Source of the DNA: a virus
Direction: 5' to 3' (one strand)
Virus record (IMG/VR): IMGVR_UViG_3300013126_002137
Coordinates: 1 to 53,421 of that record
Length of the DNA stretch: 53,421 nucleotides
The translations under genes were made by a program, and so were the position numbers. The notes below the pieces were generated by a model, which had not been told where the DNA came from, searched no databases, and saw only the letters and a program-made list of their open reading frames with translations. Below, one piece after another: positions 23,144-43,693 of the stretch. The first letter of the stretch is position 1; every line of letters starts with the position of its first letter.

Positions 23144-23362
23144 ATGGCTGAAGAAATAGAATACGAAGATAGAACATTCACTTTGAGTGCTGCACAAAAT
23201 AAAAAGTACAATGAATGGAGAAAAGAAAAAGGTGAAGTGTATGTAGGTGCCATTGGTGGTGCCTATTCATTTTGCTTCACACCAACTGGGTTGGGTTATA
23301 TGGTAGTAGTTAAATGTGCCGATGGTACAGAACTAGATTTAACTGAATATGAATATTGGTAA
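23144..23362 (+). CDS. Hypothetical small protein
   Basis: 72 residues from ATG 23144 (MAEEIEYEDRTFTLSAAQNK); the longer TTG-initiated version at 23114 overlaps its neighbour and is less likely. Beta-rich, Gly-containing core. Unknown. Confidence 0.65.
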   Translation: MAEEIEYEDRTFTLSAAQNKKYNEWRKEKGEVYVGAIGGAYSFCFTPTGLGYMVVVKCADGTELDLTEYEYW

Positions 23363-23364
23363 TT

Positions 23365-24180
23365 ATGAAAGTAGCAGAAAGGATTAAATCATATTACGAA
23401 GATAGAACTAAAACATTCTTAATGAGAAGAATGATTACTATTATTCGTTTAGATGGAAAAGGTTTTTCCAAATGGACTAAAGGTCTACAAAAACCTTTTG
23501 ATGAAGGGTTTACGGATGACATGATTGAAACAGCAAAGTACTTGTGTGAAAACATTCAAGGTGCTAAATTTGCTTATGCTCAATCAGATGAAATCTCTAT
23601 TGTACTATCTGATTTTGATAACTTAGAATCACAAGCTTGGTTTGATTACAACGTTCAAAAGATGACTAGTATTGCTGCATCTATAGCAACTGCTAAGTTC
23701 AATCAATTAAGAATGTCAAGGTCATGTTCATATGGTCAGTTAGACCAAGATTATATCAATGATTTCAAAATAGCAATGTTTGATGCTAGAGTATTCCAAG
23801 TACCTACTGTTGATGAAATGGTTAACGTAATGATTTGGAGGCAGCAAGATGCCACTAGAAATAGTGTTAGTATGGCGGCAAGTGAATATTTTTCACACAA
23901 GTCATTAGAAGGTGTTTCATCTAACGATAAACAAGACCGTTTATTCCAAGAAAAAGGAATTAATTGGAATGATTATCCGACTAAATTCAAGAGGGGTACT
24001 GTCATCAAAAAAGAAGAAGTTACATTAGTTAAAAAAAGCGAATATATTTCTGATAAAACAACTGTTATTGATGATAGAATGATTTTTACTAGAAATGTTT
24101 GGGAAGCTGATGTCGATACACCTATCTTTACTCAAGATAAAGAGTATTTGTCTAATTTAATACCCACATCAAATGACTAA
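23365..24180 (+). CDS. Thg1-like protein (tRNA 5'-end guanylyltransferase)
   Basis: 271 residues. IIRLDGKGFSKWTKGLQKPF (metal-binding Asp), KFAYAQSDEISIVL (second catalytic Asp), QKMTSIAASIATAKFN, FDARVF and WRQQDATRNSVSMAA are family hallmarks. Thg1-like enzymes add nucleotides in the 3'-5' direction, as a tRNA-His G-1 addition or as repair of 5'-truncated tRNAs. A phage copy alongside a tRNA cluster suggests tRNA 5'-end repair or maturation. Overlaps the sigma factor gene by eight bases. Confidence 0.93.
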   Translation: MKVAERIKSYYEDRTKTFLMRRMITIIRLDGKGFSKWTKGLQKPFDEGFTDDMIETAKYLCENIQGAKFAYAQSDEISIVLSDFDNLESQAWFDYNVQKMTSIAASIATAKFNQLRMSRSCSYGQLDQDYINDFKIAMFDARVFQVPTVDEMVNVMIWRQQDATRNSVSMAASEYFSHKSLEGVSSNDKQDRLFQEKGINWNDYPTKFKRGTVIKKEEVTLVKKSEYISDKTTVIDDRMIFTRNVWEADVDTPIFTQDKEYLSNLIPTSND

Positions 24181-24712
24181 CGAAGAACTATTTTGTGCTT
24201 GTGTAAAGGGTGACCCACAAGCACAAAGTTTCTTATATAAGAAATATCATAAAAATTTATTTAGTATATGTAAGAAATATTTTAACAATGAACATGACTC
24301 CATGGATTGTTTACAAGATGGGTTTATACATATATTTAGAAAACTAAAAACTGTTGACATAAACAATGTGTTAATACTAGGTAGTTGGTTACGTGTAGTT
24401 ATGAGAAACTATTGTTTAGATGTTGTTAGGAAAAAGAAAAGAGAACTTTATTTTGATAACATAGAGTATTTTACAAGTGAAATTACTAGCGAAGATGAGT
24501 TTGAACCATTAGTTTCACATAATACTTTATTAGAATTGATAGAAAACCTATCACCACAGTTTAAAAACGTGTTTATTATGTACGCACTTGATGATATGCA
24601 ACATAAAGACATAGCGGAAAAATTGGGGATTAGTGTAAATACATCTAAAACTAATTACCATAGAGCAAAAAAATCACTAAAAAAATCATTATATAGGTTG
24701 AAACTTATATAA
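24173..24712 (+). CDS. ECF-type sigma factor
   Basis: 179 residues. Region 2 (FLYKKYHKNLFSICKKYFNN, DCLQDGFIHIFRKL, SWLRVVMRNYCLDVVR) and region 4 (LIENLSPQFKNVFIMYALDD, HKDIAEKLGISVNTSKTNYH) are both present, without region 1 or 3. Binds host core RNA polymerase to redirect transcription. Its target promoter is unknown; the TATTTATWA elements are candidates. Confidence 0.92.
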   Translation: MTNEELFCACVKGDPQAQSFLYKKYHKNLFSICKKYFNNEHDSMDCLQDGFIHIFRKLKTVDINNVLILGSWLRVVMRNYCLDVVRKKKRELYFDNIEYFTSEITSEDEFEPLVSHNTLLELIENLSPQFKNVFIMYALDDMQHKDIAEKLGISVNTSKTNYHRAKKSLKKSLYRLKLI

Positions 24713-27165: not shown

Positions 27166-27588
27166 ATGGAAAATGGGATTATAATCGGGGTGGATTTTGA
27201 TGGTACGTGTGTTACACATGATTACCCTAGAGTTGGGTTAGATATTGGTGCGGTACCAATACTTAAAAGATTAACAGATAATGGTCATCAGCTTATGTTA
27301 TGGACTATGCGTGGTACTAAACCACACACTGATGGTACAGATACATTGGGTGATGCTGTTAAATGGTTTGCTGATAATGACATTCCGTTGTGGGGTATAA
27401 ATGAAAATCCAGAACAACAAGCAGCTGGATGGAGTAATAGTAATAAACAATATGCGAATTTGTTTATTGATGATACAGCATTGGGTTGTCCATTGATTTT
27501 TGATGTTAAAAAATCACATAAACCATTTGTAGATTGGATAATAGTTGAAGAATATTTGGTAAATAGAGGTTTAATATGTGTAAAATAA
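27166..27588 (+). CDS. HAD-like hydrolase
   Basis: 140 residues. VDFDGTCVTHDYP (DxD motif I), LMLWTMRGTK (motif II) and LFIDDTALG (motif IV) give a compact HAD phosphatase without an obvious cap. Overlaps the Nudix-sigma gene by 13 bases. Substrate unknown. Confidence 0.75.
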   Translation: MENGIIIGVDFDGTCVTHDYPRVGLDIGAVPILKRLTDNGHQLMLWTMRGTKPHTDGTDTLGDAVKWFADNDIPLWGINENPEQQAAGWSNSNKQYANLFIDDTALGCPLIFDVKKSHKPFVDWIIVEEYLVNRGLICVK

Positions 27589-28598
27589 TAGCTGCTGGTG
27601 TATTTATTGTTAATAGAAACAATAAATTATTGATTTGTCACCCAACAAATCATAAACCAAATACATGGAGTATTCCAAAAGGTAAGGTTGAAGCTATGGA
27701 ATCATATAAAGATGCTTGTGTGAGGGAAACATTTGAAGAAACAAACATTGATTTATCTGATTACAAAGATAAATTAATTATGTTGGATAGTGTAAACTAT
27801 TCACATAAAAGAAAAATGCTCATTCCTTTTGTATTATTTGAGAATGATTGTGAATTATTAAATTTATCTTTGATAACAATACAATGTAATTCAAATGTAC
27901 CAGAAGATAGAGGTGGTTTTCTAGAGATGGATGATTATAAATGGGTGACAATTGAGGAGGCTAAAGAATTATTACATGAAACACAAGTTGCATGTTTAGA
28001 TAAAGTTAAACGATTATCTTCAAGGAAAGCAGCACAACTAGAAGAAGAATTATTATTAGAAAGGTATCTTAATGGTGATAATACAGCCTTTAGCCCTCTA
28101 TATTATAGGTATAGAGGATTAGTTTTATTTCATTTGAATAAAAGTTTTAGTTATTTAAGTAATGAAGATATTGAGGATTTGGCTATTGATTTTTTAGGTA
28201 GAATAAGTGGTAGACTAAATTTGTATGATAAAGAAAAAAGTTTATTTAGGACTTGGATGACTAAATGTATTTTGCATTTCATAACAGAACATAAAAATAA
28301 AAAATCAACAAGAGAAAAAGATATTACGGATTCAATAACAACATATAATTCTGATAATGAATATTATGATATGTATATGATTTCAGATGATGATACATTA
28401 AAAAATGTGAGTTATCTTAATATAATTAAATTAATAAAAGAAAGATTATGTGATGATGATTGGAAAATATTTGAATTGCATTTTTTACAAGGATACAACC
28501 AAGCTGAAACTGGTAAACGATTAGGGTTAAGAGAAGATACTATGTGGTTTAGAATAAAAAGAATTAGAAAAAGGTTAGATGGGTTACAAAATTTATAA
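27576..28598 (+). CDS. Nudix hydrolase fused to an ECF-like sigma factor
   Basis: 340 residues in one continuous frame. Residues 1 to about 150 are a Nudix domain with the Nudix box GKVEAMESYKDACVRETFEE followed by TN. Residues about 165 to 340 look like sigma region 2 (RYLNGDNTAFSPLYYRYRGL, DIEDLAIDFLGRI, LFRTWMTKCILHFI) and region 4 (ERLCDDDWKIFELHFLQGYN, QAETGKRLGLREDTMWFRIK). A sigma factor joined to a nucleotide-diphosphate hydrolase or sensor is, to my knowledge, not a described architecture. It could sense ADP-ribose/NAD-type ligands or decap initiating RNAs. Confidence 0.85.
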   Translation: MCKIIAAGVFIVNRNNKLLICHPTNHKPNTWSIPKGKVEAMESYKDACVRETFEETNIDLSDYKDKLIMLDSVNYSHKRKMLIPFVLFENDCELLNLSLITIQCNSNVPEDRGGFLEMDDYKWVTIEEAKELLHETQVACLDKVKRLSSRKAAQLEEELLLERYLNGDNTAFSPLYYRYRGLVLFHLNKSFSYLSNEDIEDLAIDFLGRISGRLNLYDKEKSLFRTWMTKCILHFITEHKNKKSTREKDITDSITTYNSDNEYYDMYMISDDDTLKNVSYLNIIKLIKERLCDDDWKIFELHFLQGYNQAETGKRLGLREDTMWFRIKRIRKRLDGLQNL

Positions 28599-28606
28599 TT
28601 AATTTA

Positions 28607-28828
28607 ATGATGATGAGATTAGATTTACATGGGGTAAAACACCACGAAGTTTGCAGACGAGTTGATGAGTTTATTTGGGAAACTATGCAGAAGAAAAAAA
28701 CACAAGCCCTTATTATAACTGGCAAATCAAGACCTATGAAGGAGTTAGTAAAGGAATGTTTAAAAGATTACGATGCTAAATGTTTTGATTTGTTTGATGG
28801 TGGGAGTTTAGTTGTTGATTTATTTTAA
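28607..28828 (+). CDS. Smr-domain protein
   Basis: 73 residues, a minimal Smr domain: LDLHGVKHHEVCRRVDEFIW then LIITGKSRPMKELVKECL. The DLHG and (T)GK(S) motifs are those of Smr nucleases such as SmrB, which cuts mRNA at collided ribosomes. The first three codons are ATG, so the exact start is uncertain by two residues. Context with SmpB and RNase R in the same window is suggestive. Confidence 0.78.
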   Translation: MMMRLDLHGVKHHEVCRRVDEFIWETMQKKKTQALIITGKSRPMKELVKECLKDYDAKCFDLFDGGSLVVDLF

Positions 28829-30193: not shown

Positions 30194-30658
30194 ATGAAAG
30201 CTATTGAAATAAAAGCACCTAATCCAACTCCAACTAAAATATTTTTGGCTGGTAGTATTGAGATGGGTAATGCCGAGGACTGGCAAACAAAAATTGTTGA
30301 GTCATTTAAAGATAAACCATATATATTTTTAAACCCTAGACGTGATGATTGGGATAGTTCATGGGAGCAAGTGATTACAAATCCACAGTTTAAAGAACAA
30401 GTAACTTGGGAATTAAACTCATTGGATTCAGCTGACGTAATTATTATGTACTTTGACCCTAATACAAAAAGTCCAATATCATTATTGGAATTAGGTTTAC
30501 ACGCTAATTCAAAAAAGATGATTGTTTGTTGCCCAAAAGGATTCTGGAGAAAAGGTAATGTAGAAATTGTTTGTGATAGATATAATATACCATGTGTAAG
30601 TGATATCGATTCATTAATAGTAAATTGGGATTATTTAATTTGGAAATTAAATGGCTAA
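30194..30658 (+). CDS. Nucleoside 2-deoxyribosyltransferase-like protein
   Basis: 154 residues. IFLAGSIEMGNAEDWQ, LNPRRDDWDSSWEQ, VTWELNSLDSADVIIMYFDP and SPISLLELGLHA match the deoxyribosyltransferase-like 2 family. These cleave or exchange N-glycosidic bonds of nucleosides or nucleotides; relatives act on modified dNMPs. Overlaps IF3 by eight bases. Confidence 0.85.
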   Translation: MKAIEIKAPNPTPTKIFLAGSIEMGNAEDWQTKIVESFKDKPYIFLNPRRDDWDSSWEQVITNPQFKEQVTWELNSLDSADVIIMYFDPNTKSPISLLELGLHANSKKMIVCCPKGFWRKGNVEIVCDRYNIPCVSDIDSLIVNWDYLIWKLNG

Positions 30659-31148
30659 TAAAAAAAGAGAACATAAACTTAACGATGAAATCATCGCAAG
30701 AGTTGTAAGGGTTGATGGACAAATCATAACCATTCAAGAAGCACTACGTAAAGCAGAAGACTCTGAAATGGATTTGGTTCTTATTAACGATAATGTTGAC
30801 CCTAAAATTTGTCGCATATTAAACTACGAAAAGTTTTTGTATGAACAAAAAAGAAAAGGTAAAGATAAACCTAAAGCATTAGAGGTTAAAGAAATAAAAC
30901 TTGGACCAAATACGTCTGAAAATGATTTATCTTATCGTTCAAAACACATTGTTGAGTTTTTAAACAAAGGTCACAAAGTTAAATTGACAATGCAATTTAG
31001 AGGTCGTGAAAAGGTCTTTGTTTCTAACGGTGAACTACTTATGTTAAAACTTATAGATTCAATATCTGACCACGGTTTACCAGAAACAATGCCAAAGATG
31101 GAAGGTAAAAAAATGCAGTGTCTTTTAAAACCAAAAGCTAAGAAATAA
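30651..31148 (+). CDS. infC: Translation initiation factor IF-3
   Basis: 165 residues, full IF3 length. N-domain: LNDEIIARVVRVDGQIITIQ, DLVLINDNVDPKICRILNYE, then KFLYEQKRK. C-domain: KEIKLGPNTSENDLSYRSKH, FLNKGHKVKLTMQFRGRE, PKMEGKKMQCLLKPK. IF3 controls start-codon fidelity and subunit splitting. A phage copy is rare and could favour phage start sites, including the leaderless mRNAs seen here. Confidence 0.95.
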   Translation: MANKKREHKLNDEIIARVVRVDGQIITIQEALRKAEDSEMDLVLINDNVDPKICRILNYEKFLYEQKRKGKDKPKALEVKEIKLGPNTSENDLSYRSKHIVEFLNKGHKVKLTMQFRGREKVFVSNGELLMLKLIDSISDHGLPETMPKMEGKKMQCLLKPKAKK

Positions 31149-33896: not shown

Positions 33897-35846
33897 ATGA
33901 TAAAAATAGGAGATATATTAGAGGGGAAAGTAAGTATGAACGCAAGTGGTTCGGCTTATTTAGTTAGTCCAGACTTGCCAAAAGACATTTATTTACACAA
34001 GTCTAAAACAAACAAAGCGTTACACTTAGATACTGTTAGAATAAAGGTAATTCCAGGCCAAGGCCGCTCAATGGAAGGTGAAGTTATAGAAATAGTTGAA
34101 AGATTTAGAACAGAATTTGTCGGAACTATTCAAATAAGTGAAAAGTTTGCTTTCTTTATTCCAGACTCAAATAAGTTAGTGGTTGATTTCTTTATCCCAC
34201 TAGGTAAAATGTTGGGTGCAACACATGGACAAAAAGTTGTTGCTCGTCTTACTGAATGGAAAGACAAAGCTAAAAACCCTAATGGTGAGATTGTTAGAGT
34301 AATTGGTAATTCTGGAGAACACGAAACAGAAATCCATTCAATTTTAGAAGAATATGGTTTACCTTATGATTTTCCAGATGATGTAATTGCTGAAGCTGAA
34401 GCGATATCAGAAGACATTCCACAATCAGAAATAGACAAACGCAGAGATATGCGTGATGTACTTACATTTACTATTGACCCACACGATGCAAAAGACTTTG
34501 ATGATGCATTGAGTGTTCAATGGGTTAACGGTGTGTTGGAAGTTGGTGTTCACATTGCTGATGTGTCACATTATATGCGACCAGACACAGAGCTGGATAG
34601 AGAAGCGTTTGCTAGAGGTACGAGTGTTTACCTAGTAGATAGATGTGTCGCAATGATACCAGAGAAGCTTTCTAACGGACTTTGTTCACTAAGACCACAC
34701 GAAGATAAGCTTTGCTTTTCAGTGGTGTTTAAAATCGACCAAAATGGCCATGTAATGGATGAATGGTTTGGTAGAACTGTAATACATTCTGACCATAGAT
34801 TTACATATGAAGAAGCACAATATGTGATTGAAAACCCTAATGTAATAAAAAAACCTAGAAGTATTGGCCCAAGCACAATTATTGACAAAGAGAATTTATG
34901 TGGTCAAGCTATTATTACTTTAGACAAATATGCTAAGAAAATGCGTAAGGTTAGGTTTAGTAAAGGTTCTATATCATTTGATAAACATGAAGTTAGATTC
35001 AAATTAGATGAGAACAACAAACCAGTAGATATCATATTCAAAGTGGGTAAGGATTCCAACAAACTTATTGAAGAATATATGTTATTGGCTAACAGACACG
35101 TTGCTCAGTTCATTAACCAAAAAGGTTTACCAATGGTTAACAGAGCTCATGATAAACCAGATGAAACTAAATTAGAAAGTCTTAAAGATTTCATCCATCA
35201 ATTTGGTTATGATATCAAAATAGATACACCAGAAGAAACAACAAGAACTTTGAATAAGTTGTTACGTGATGTTAGAGGGACTAACGAAGAAGATATGATT
35301 ACTAACTTGGTAGTTAGAACTATGCAGAAAGCTGATTATCGCACAAAGAACATAGGTCATTACGGTTTAGGTTTTAAACATTATACTCACTTTACAAGTC
35401 CAATCAGACGTTATCCAGATGTTATCATTCATAGATTGTTAGCGTTGTATTTAGATGACACCAGAAAGACTAACCCTAATATAGGTAAGTTAGATGCTAA
35501 ATGTGTTCACCTATCTGAAAGAGAAAAGAAAGCACAAAAAGCTGAAAGAGATAGTATCAAGTTCATGCAATGTGTTTATATGTCTGACAAGATAGGTAAA
35601 GTTTACAAAGGTATGGTTACTAGTGTAACTGAATATGGTGTCTTTATCACTATTGAGGAAAATGGTTGTGATTGTTTAATAAAATTAGCTAACATAAACG
35701 GAACTTGGATATCCGATGTTGAAAATTATAGACTGAAAGAACATAACACTGGAAGAATAATTCGTTTAGGTGATGAGGTTCATGTTGTCGTAACATCAGT
35801 TGACATAGAGAAAAAGAACATAAACCTTAATTTAATTAGCTTGTAG
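33897..35846 (+). CDS. rnr: Ribonuclease R
   Basis: 649 residues with the family's domain order: cold-shock domains (1-150), RNB exonuclease with the catalytic DPHDAKDFDDALS at 194-206 followed by HIADVSHYM, and a C-terminal S1 domain (KVYKGMVTSVTEYGVFITIE). It degrades structured RNA 3' to 5' and in bacteria works with SmpB/tmRNA on nonstop mRNAs. SmpB is encoded 6.5 kb downstream. The N-terminal helix-turn-helix and the Lys-rich tail of E. coli RNase R are missing. Confidence 0.94.
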   Translation: MIKIGDILEGKVSMNASGSAYLVSPDLPKDIYLHKSKTNKALHLDTVRIKVIPGQGRSMEGEVIEIVERFRTEFVGTIQISEKFAFFIPDSNKLVVDFFIPLGKMLGATHGQKVVARLTEWKDKAKNPNGEIVRVIGNSGEHETEIHSILEEYGLPYDFPDDVIAEAEAISEDIPQSEIDKRRDMRDVLTFTIDPHDAKDFDDALSVQWVNGVLEVGVHIADVSHYMRPDTELDREAFARGTSVYLVDRCVAMIPEKLSNGLCSLRPHEDKLCFSVVFKIDQNGHVMDEWFGRTVIHSDHRFTYEEAQYVIENPNVIKKPRSIGPSTIIDKENLCGQAIITLDKYAKKMRKVRFSKGSISFDKHEVRFKLDENNKPVDIIFKVGKDSNKLIEEYMLLANRHVAQFINQKGLPMVNRAHDKPDETKLESLKDFIHQFGYDIKIDTPEETTRTLNKLLRDVRGTNEEDMITNLVVRTMQKADYRTKNIGHYGLGFKHYTHFTSPIRRYPDVIIHRLLALYLDDTRKTNPNIGKLDAKCVHLSEREKKAQKAERDSIKFMQCVYMSDKIGKVYKGMVTSVTEYGVFITIEENGCDCLIKLANINGTWISDVENYRLKEHNTGRIIRLGDEVHVVVTSVDIEKKNINLNLISL

Positions 35847-42214: not shown

Positions 42215-42386
42215 AAAAGAAGCATTAGAAGTTTTAATGAGAGAACTATCTAAGAACAATGATTTAATGTTCTATTTAAAACAAATGGCTATCTACTTAC
42301 AAGAATATGAAGTAGCAGCCAAACTTAGAGCAATTGATACTAACAAATTAAAAGATGATATAAATGAAGCACTTAATAAAGAATAA
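42207..42386 (+). CDS. Small helical protein with UVR-like segment
   Basis: 59 residues. LQEYEVAAKLRAIDTNKL resembles a UVR motif like that at the end of the 445-858 protein. Overlaps genes on both sides (8 and 23 bases). Confidence 0.55.
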   Translation: MNKKEALEVLMRELSKNNDLMFYLKQMAIYLQEYEVAAKLRAIDTNKLKDDINEALNKE

Positions 42387-42804
42387 AAAAGCGTACTTCG
42401 AGTATCAAATACTTGAAAAGTATACTGCTGGAATCAAATTACAAGGTTCAGAAGTTAAGTCTATTAGAAACGGAAAAGTTTCAATAAGTGAAGCATATTG
42501 TTTTATCGCTAACAATGAAGTGTTTATAAAAGGTATGCACATCACCGAACACAAAGAGGGTGGTAAACACAACAACCACCAACCAATTAGGGACAGAAAA
42601 TTATTACTAAACAAAAAAGAAATCATCAAATTAGATGAAAAAAGTTCACAAAAAGGCTTGACTATTGTGCCATTAGAGGTTATATTAACAGACACTGGAT
42701 TTATAAAAATAGAAATCGGACTAGCCAAAGGTAAAAATCTTTATGACAAAAGACAAACTATCAAAGAGAAAGATTTAAAAAGAGAAATCGAGCGCAATTT
42801 ATAA
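42364..42804 (+). CDS. smpB: SsrA-binding protein SmpB
   Basis: 146 residues. NKKAYFEYQILEKYTAGIKL, GSEVKSIRNGKVSISEAYC, RDRKLLLNKKEI, KGLTIVPLEV and LAKGKNLYDKRQTIKEKD are diagnostic. The C-terminal basic tail that enters the mRNA channel is shortened (ends KREIERNL). SmpB delivers tmRNA to stalled ribosomes. No clear ssrA gene is seen, so it may use host tmRNA or an unrecognised phage RNA. Confidence 0.95.
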   Translation: MKHLIKNKKAYFEYQILEKYTAGIKLQGSEVKSIRNGKVSISEAYCFIANNEVFIKGMHITEHKEGGKHNNHQPIRDRKLLLNKKEIIKLDEKSSQKGLTIVPLEVILTDTGFIKIEIGLAKGKNLYDKRQTIKEKDLKREIERNL

Positions 42805-42829: not shown

Positions 42830-43693
42830 ATGAAGAGTTTAACAATTAGCAATTTAATTACAAGTAGAGAAAATGATTCTTTTAAAAAGTATTTAAAAGA
42901 AGTATCTAAAATCAAACCATTTACTGTCGAAGAAGAGGCAGCATGTGCGTTAAAAGCATTCAATGGTGATAAAAAAGCAAAAGAAGAGTTGGTTATTAGA
43001 AACCTAAAGTTTGTGATTAGTGTTGCTAAACAGTATGTTACACCACAATCTCCATTGGAAGATTTGGTTAACGAAGGTAACATGGGATTAATAATGGCAG
43101 CTGAAAGATTTAACCCAGATGAAAAGGTTAAGTTTATATCTTATGCCGTTTGGTGGATTAGAAAAATAATCATCGAACATATCAACAAATATAACCGTAT
43201 GGTTAGATTACCGTTGAATAAAATAACTAGTTTGTCTAAGTTAGATAAGTTAATTGCAGAGAAAGAACAAGAGAAAGGTCGTAAAATTGAAATTCATGAA
43301 CTATCAACTGATTTAAACACTGATGAGTATGAAGCATTGGAAGTATTAACTACTTATAAAATGGATTCATTGGATAGACAATTAGGTGGTGAAGATGGTG
43401 ATGGTTCAACCCTTATCGATTTATTAGCTGATAATACGTTTAAAAGTAGTGACCACTTGGTTACTGATTCAGACCATAAAACAACATTATTTAAAGGTTT
43501 AGAATCATTAAAGGCGAGAGATAAAGAAATTATAATATTGCTATTTGGTTTAGATGGTAAAGAACCAAGAACATTACAAGAAGTAAGTGATATTGTTGGA
43601 ATGAGCCGTGAAATGGTTAGACAAGTTAAAATGAAGTCACTTGTTAAATTAAGTAAAAATAAAAACATACAAACAGCTTATAGCGAGTTGTAA
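42830..43693 (+). CDS. RpoD-like primary-type sigma factor
   Basis: 287 residues. LTISNLITSRENDSFKKYLK at the start is like Bacteroidetes RpoD. Region 2 contains LKFVISVAKQYV, EDLVNEGNMGLIMAAERF and KFISYAVWWIRK; region 3 RMVRLPLNKI; region 4 RTLQEVSDIVGMSREMVRQV. Region 1.1 is absent, as in Bacteroidetes. It should recognise the same TTTG/TANNTTTG promoters that stud this window. Confidence 0.94.
   Translation: MKSLTISNLITSRENDSFKKYLKEVSKIKPFTVEEEAACALKAFNGDKKAKEELVIRNLKFVISVAKQYVTPQSPLEDLVNEGNMGLIMAAERFNPDEKVKFISYAVWWIRKIIIEHINKYNRMVRLPLNKITSLSKLDKLIAEKEQEKGRKIEIHELSTDLNTDEYEALEVLTTYKMDSLDRQLGGEDGDGSTLIDLLADNTFKSSDHLVTDSDHKTTLFKGLESLKARDKEIIILLFGLDGKEPRTLQEVSDIVGMSREMVRQVKMKSLVKLSKNKNIQTAYSEL

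Follow-up and report, generated by a model that had tools for sequence, protein, structure and literature searches.

A single open reading frame in a viral metagenomic contig passes from a Nudix hydrolase domain directly into an ECF sigma factor, raising the questions of whether this is a genuine gene and, if so, whether the enzyme and the sigma factor influence each other. The contig is IMG/VR record IMGVR_UViG_3300013126_002137, positions 1 to 53,421, and we refer to this whole 53,421-nucleotide stretch as the window. The features at the locus are as follows.

27576..28598, plus strand: fusion gene of 340 aa, Nudix hydrolase (aa 1-150) plus ECF sigma factor (aa 151-340), from the open frame, domain profiles and structures
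27576..28025, plus strand: Nudix domain of the T4/RB43 NudE-like phage clade, from PF00293 and alignments, with the catalytic REx2EE intact and its end at Arg150
27681..27749, plus strand: Nudix box, G36-KVEAM-E42-SYKDACV-RE-TF-EE-TN-I58, the late G replaced by N family-wide
28021..28030, plus strand: junction, ...TCAAG/GAAAGC..., where sister phages read TCAAGATGATGAGATTAG
28026..28595, plus strand: complete ECF sigma factor (sigma-2, low-confidence linker, sigma-4), from TIGR02937, phmmer against 1or7, AF2 with Foldseek and a start-codon audit
28607..28828, plus strand: Smr-domain gene (PF01713, 4.9e-8), placed by synteny and shifted downstream by the sigma insertion

The reading frame and its two domains

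The frame runs from the ATG at 27576 to the stop at 28598 with no internal stop over 340 codons; at the 31% GC of the window, a 190-codon open frame would arise by chance with a probability of about 1.7e-8. Codon statistics trained on the window's remaining genes score the two halves as coding in this same frame and in 0/5 of the other frames, and the codon usage of both is that of the window itself. A scan for promoters and terminators gave no signals above those in shuffled sequences.

Within the N-terminal half, PF00293 (Pfam NUDIX) matches aa 5-133 at 3.9e-15, and the motif GX5EX7REUXEEXGU is represented by GKVEAMESYKDACVRETFEETNI, with every catalytic R and E residue present. The substitutions of U by T and of the late G by N are family traits also found in stand-alone relatives, and G36, E42, R50, E51, E54 and E55 are invariant across 29 aligned Nudix sequences. 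The AlphaFold (AF2) model of this half has a pLDDT of about 97 and in Foldseek searches matches Dcp2, Ap4A hydrolases and RppH, such that aa 1-150 combine the Nudix fold with the Nudix motif.

The C-terminal half is matched by TIGR02937 (sigma70-ECF, NCBIfam) over aa 171-334 with 51.8-53.6 bits, the higher value being for the sigma half alone, against a curated cut-off of 42.9 bits. PF08281 (sigma region 4) scores 27.2 bits, above its gathering score of 25.7, PF04542 (sigma region 2) alone gives 15.8-16.2 bits, under its gathering score of 24, and PHROG 1740 (phrog_1740, phage RNAP sigma factor) matches at 1.8e-15. A combined alignment of the Nudix and sigma parts misaligned the sigma rows, and the halves were therefore modelled with separate alignments. 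The sigma half is predicted to form a four-helix sigma-2 and a helical sigma-4, each with a pLDDT of about 90, separated by a low-confidence linker. All 14 PDB matches at E<=0.001 in Foldseek are sigma factors or sigma complexes, with E. coli sigma-E (1or7) at the top and CnrH, AlgU and SigW among the others, and the phmmer alignment to 1or7 begins at about the first residues, so that the C-terminus of Nudix and the N-terminus of sigma-E come together at the junction. An earlier note on this DNA had described a single uninterrupted frame joining an intact Nudix box to an ECF-like sigma factor with regions 2 and 4, and had asked for a structural check of the C-terminal half. That description holds, with the nuance of the U to T and G to N replacements, and the C-terminal half does model as a sigma factor, with two confident domains and sigma-only PDB matches.

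No close homologue of the sigma half was found in viral_contigs, genome_contigs, phages or plasmids, and an alignment-based search starting from it retrieved only the conserved phage ECF, one of two further sigma genes in the window.

24173..24712, plus strand: second, conserved phage ECF-type sigma gene, a paralogue about 25% identical to the fused sigma factor
42830..43693, plus strand: third sigma gene, RpoD-like, with regions 1.2, 2 and 4

The closest homologues that we found are about 24-33% identical to the sigma half, and the best cellular ECFs, from Bacteroidota, are 29-33% identical and score above the phage ECF at 24173. Because of the low identity to the 24173 gene and these better scores with Bacteroidota ECFs, capture of a host-type ECF appears the more likely origin of the fused sigma factor, and its derivation by duplication of the phage ECF is unlikely. 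The same ECF matches, together with the gene at 42830, which we take to resemble Bacteroidota RpoD in length and sequence, suggest that the host phylum is probably Bacteroidota. The presence of three phage sigma factors is consistent with use of the host core polymerase. Two tandem, overlapping ECF-type sigma genes (L090:525-1112 and 1108-1683) occur in another large phage, which also has a related Nudix gene.

The junction, the empty site and a second fusion

Two sister phages, L001 and L002, have the same syntenic site without an ECF gene. Their flanking genes on both sides are 77-92% identical to those of the window, and their Nudix proteins, 82% (L001) and 78% (L002) identical to the fused copy, end at the same Arg150; the pair of genes (128 aa and 140 aa) preceding the Nudix gene in the window is present in L002 as well. 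In L001 the site reads TCAAGATGATGAGATTAG, where the TGA that stops Nudix overlaps the Smr-domain gene's ATG. In the window, TCAAG is followed by GAAAGCAGCACAACTAGAAGAAGAA..., the sigma gene is closed by a TAA at 28596-28598, and after this the Smr gene resumes with ATGATGATGAGATTAG. The ECF gene thus sits between Nudix and Smr without a start codon of its own and without the Nudix stop before it, and a start-codon audit found no ATG, GTG or TTG across codons 124-187 that could serve as a separate sigma start. A complete Nudix protein and a complete ECF protein lie end to end, lacking only the intervening stop and start codons, and loss of a 4-nt ATGA stop/start overlap would fit the sequences. 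Downstream, the Smr gene and an AAA+ gene keep their conserved order. The join looks like a real chimeric gene composed of two complete proteins head to tail. The fused sequence was seen once, in a single metagenomic contig, and the exact junction was absent from viral_contigs, a collection from which close relatives of the window may have been withheld.

Comparison of the Nudix half with its L001 counterpart gives dN 0.098 and dS 0.455, a pairwise dN/dS of about 0.2, and relative to the outgroup L003 the fused Nudix has changed little faster than the stand-alone copy (0.293 vs 0.271). Because of this ratio, and because there is hardly any rate excess, the Nudix half is probably still an enzyme and not degenerating, as far as can be predicted from sequence; most of the length of the fused branch may be older than the fusion itself. 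The Nudix and Smr genes form a conserved and usually ATGA-overlapping pair, found at L001:6001-6668 and in many of L018-L050, which are large phages, and the pair is possibly one for RNA processing.

A different fusion involves the same Nudix gene in three related assemblies.

L003:5653-6450, and also in L004 and L005: N-terminal Nudix fusion

In these the Nudix frame is open for more than 100 codons upstream, and another gene lying directly 5' reads into it in frame; the Nudix gene's own ATG is kept. The upstream partner is a stand-alone gene in L001 (8018-8398; 72% identical over 79 aa), and the open frame agrees in all three assemblies, which differ at a few bases. Unrelated genes have thus been inserted next to this Nudix gene and joined to it on two occasions, once at each end, which points to gene insertion as the source of fusions in this packed operon. 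The Nudix-sigma fusion may then be a by-product of insertion and not a purpose-built switch. It is mainly because a different gene has been fused to the opposite end of Nudix in L003-L005 that we do not assume selection for signal coupling.

Searches for recurrence of the Nudix-sigma arrangement, which the earlier note had proposed as a check, gave a sigma factor in frame with Nudix at 0/57 viral loci with a Nudix relative, and among these loci most of the closer relatives have the Smr gene directly after Nudix, usually overlapping. A sigma factor was joined to none of 56 cellular Nudix relatives, nor was there a Nudix-sigma fusion among the matches listed from 395 Bacteroidota genomes, which are essentially either to the Nudix half or to the sigma half. 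Inspection of the long-frame cellular candidates (G250, G129, G325, G106, G307, G303 and G367) showed that none is a Nudix-sigma fusion. One Bacteroidota genome (L215, G307:C1) has a 420-aa frame that begins with a Nudix domain and, judged by eye, resembles an RNA ligase towards its C-terminus. No DNA-level relatives of the window were found among named phages. The fusion was likewise not found in the open-access literature searched; within that literature, the earlier statement that no protein with this order has been described still stands.

Interpretations of the fusion

The interpretation that we favour, with a probability of about 0.55, is that of a chimeric protein in a large, probably Bacteroidota-infecting phage, with both halves working and their activities independent. 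A NudE-type Nudix gene that normally overlaps a small Smr-domain gene would have gained an ECF gene at its 3' end, and two complete proteins would have been joined once the stop of Nudix and the start of the sigma gene were lost. As one of the phage's three sigma factors, the C-terminal half would bind the core RNA polymerase of the host and guide it to a subset of promoters on the phage genome. The N-terminal half would remain an active Nudix hydrolase acting on substrates of the ADP-ribose, ApnA or FAD type, as described for T4 NudE, whose substrates include ADP-ribose, FAD and Ap3A (PMC9503650). The enzyme would then ride on the sigma factor and need not regulate it. We infer core binding, promoter use, the Nudix substrate and the independence of the two activities from sequence. 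One element of the structural prediction counts against independence. The full-length AlphaFold model has one helix (aa 141-165) running from Nudix into sigma-2, in a region where the alignment is without sigma homologues and in a model whose relative domain placement is unreliable; such a helix could transmit a conformational change, which favours a coupled protein.

Coupling in a broad sense, in which the Nudix enzyme either controls the sigma factor directly or is delivered by it, and ADP-ribose, NAD or ApnA is linked to promoter choice or to the chemistry of RNA 5' ends, is possible but doubtful. In its regulatory form, the Nudix domain would sense ADP-ribose, NAD+, ApnA or an alarmone, thereby switching the sigma factor on or off. 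There are precedents in ECF41 with SnoaL, CorE, ECF42 with TPR and N-terminally extended ECFs (PMC8999054, PMC8103513), and both the several NAD/ADP-ribose genes of the window and the predicted continuous helix between the domains fit such a switch. However, the Nudix motif is intact here and impaired in the NrtR/AraR sensors, the fusion was not found in any relative searched, and the unrelated fusion at the other end of Nudix indicates that joining can be explained without coupling; we consider a ligand-gated sigma factor unlikely. A tethered Nudix enzyme might alternatively process 5' ends during transcription, stripping NAD, ApnA or triphosphate ends or clearing such nucleotides from the initiating polymerase. 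In favour of this, Dcp2 decapping enzymes, RppH and Ap4A hydrolases are among the nearest relatives with a solved structure, as judged by sequence and by fold. The nearly invariant Y75, 17 residues past the Nudix box, fits in position a tyrosine motif described for ApnA hydrolases (PMC5389931), and dinucleoside polyphosphates are 5' RNA caps in E. coli (PMC7044304). Against this, the substrate class of a Nudix enzyme cannot be read from its fold and the stand-alone relatives function without a sigma factor, and we judge 5'-end processing to be quite improbable. The earlier note had offered both forms of coupling, and so far they are unsupported, being set back by the age of the stand-alone Nudix enzyme, its intact catalytic residues, the isolation of the fusion and the different fusion in the sister lineage. 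That this lineage has a different gene fused to the other Nudix end suggests that fusions at this locus need no functional coupling.

The two remaining explanations deny the sigma half a role in starting transcription or the gene its existence. The divergent region 2, with its sub-cut-off Pfam score, and the remoteness of the nearest homologues are what might be expected of a sigma half without a role in transcription start, whether a decoy, a partner-switch protein (PhyR-like) or a decaying relic, but its full-length ECF model is above cut-off, both its domains are confidently predicted, its frame is intact and its codon usage is normal, leaving this account little chance of being right. An assembly or sequencing artefact merging two separate genes, which the earlier note had named as a concern, is suggested by the single metagenomic contig and by the lack of a second copy of the junction in viral_contigs. 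It would nevertheless require that a stop codon and a start codon were both lost, for which a single-base error is an unlikely cause, and neither the missing sigma start near the junction nor the conserved order of the downstream Smr and AAA+ genes fits it; we regard an artefact as very improbable indeed.

Genomic context and comparison with known systems

NAD/ADP-ribose metabolism is a battleground of anti-phage defence. Between 11578 and 22108 the window carries genes for NMNAT-Nudix (11578), NAMPT (12958), a macro domain (15065), Sir2 (19008) and PRPP synthetase (21059), a set resembling those of phage NAD+ salvage or reconstitution, and the view that this phage manages NAD+ is thus borne out as context. 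Elsewhere in the window are genes for a Thg1-like protein (23356-24180), IF-3 (30651-31148), an RNase R-like protein (33897-35846) and SmpB (42364-42804), an unusual phage set for translation and RNA quality control. If the two halves were coupled, the protein would be the first Nudix-controlled sigma factor in the sequences and open-access literature searched, and would link NAD/ADP-ribose metabolism directly to phage promoter choice. Even if they are uncoupled, the locus is a clear example from nature of multidomain proteins being created when genes insert into overlapping phage operons: among these sister phages one Nudix gene has been fused in two different ways, and relatives with the empty site can be set beside them.

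The Nudix half is most readily compared with the phage NudE-type hydrolases of T4 and RB43, with which it shares the domain and the same catalytic and C-S...EMD motifs (RB43 NudE is 32-35% identical). Orthologues of this type stand alone across many large phages, whereas the window copy is joined to a sigma factor. The sigma half has the sigma-2/sigma-4 layout of the Bacteroidota ECFs and the TIGR02937 family, its best cellular match being about 29-33% identical, but differs in having no start codon of its own and a 150-aa N-terminal enzyme domain.

That ECF sigma factors can carry additional domains is already known (PMC8999054, PMC8103513). Those with regulatory extensions (ECF41 SnoaL, ECF42 TPR, ECF238 CorE and the N-terminally extended groups) likewise have an extra globular domain in one chain, as the single frame provides here. 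Their extensions are mostly C-terminal, a Nudix extension is not mentioned in these two reviews, and the partner domain in the window, unlike those extensions, is a recognisable, intact phage enzyme; conservation of the extension across members is not seen for a fusion found once. NrtR and AraR also combine an N-terminal Nudix domain with a C-terminal transcription domain, which is a winged HTH (wHTH) repressor in place of a sigma factor, and their Nudix domain has been turned into a sensor with an impaired motif (PMC4666351), whereas the fusion has an ECF sigma factor and intact catalytic residues. Nudix transcription regulators and domain-fused ECFs are known kinds of protein, and it is the Nudix-sigma order that is new to the sequences and open-access literature searched.
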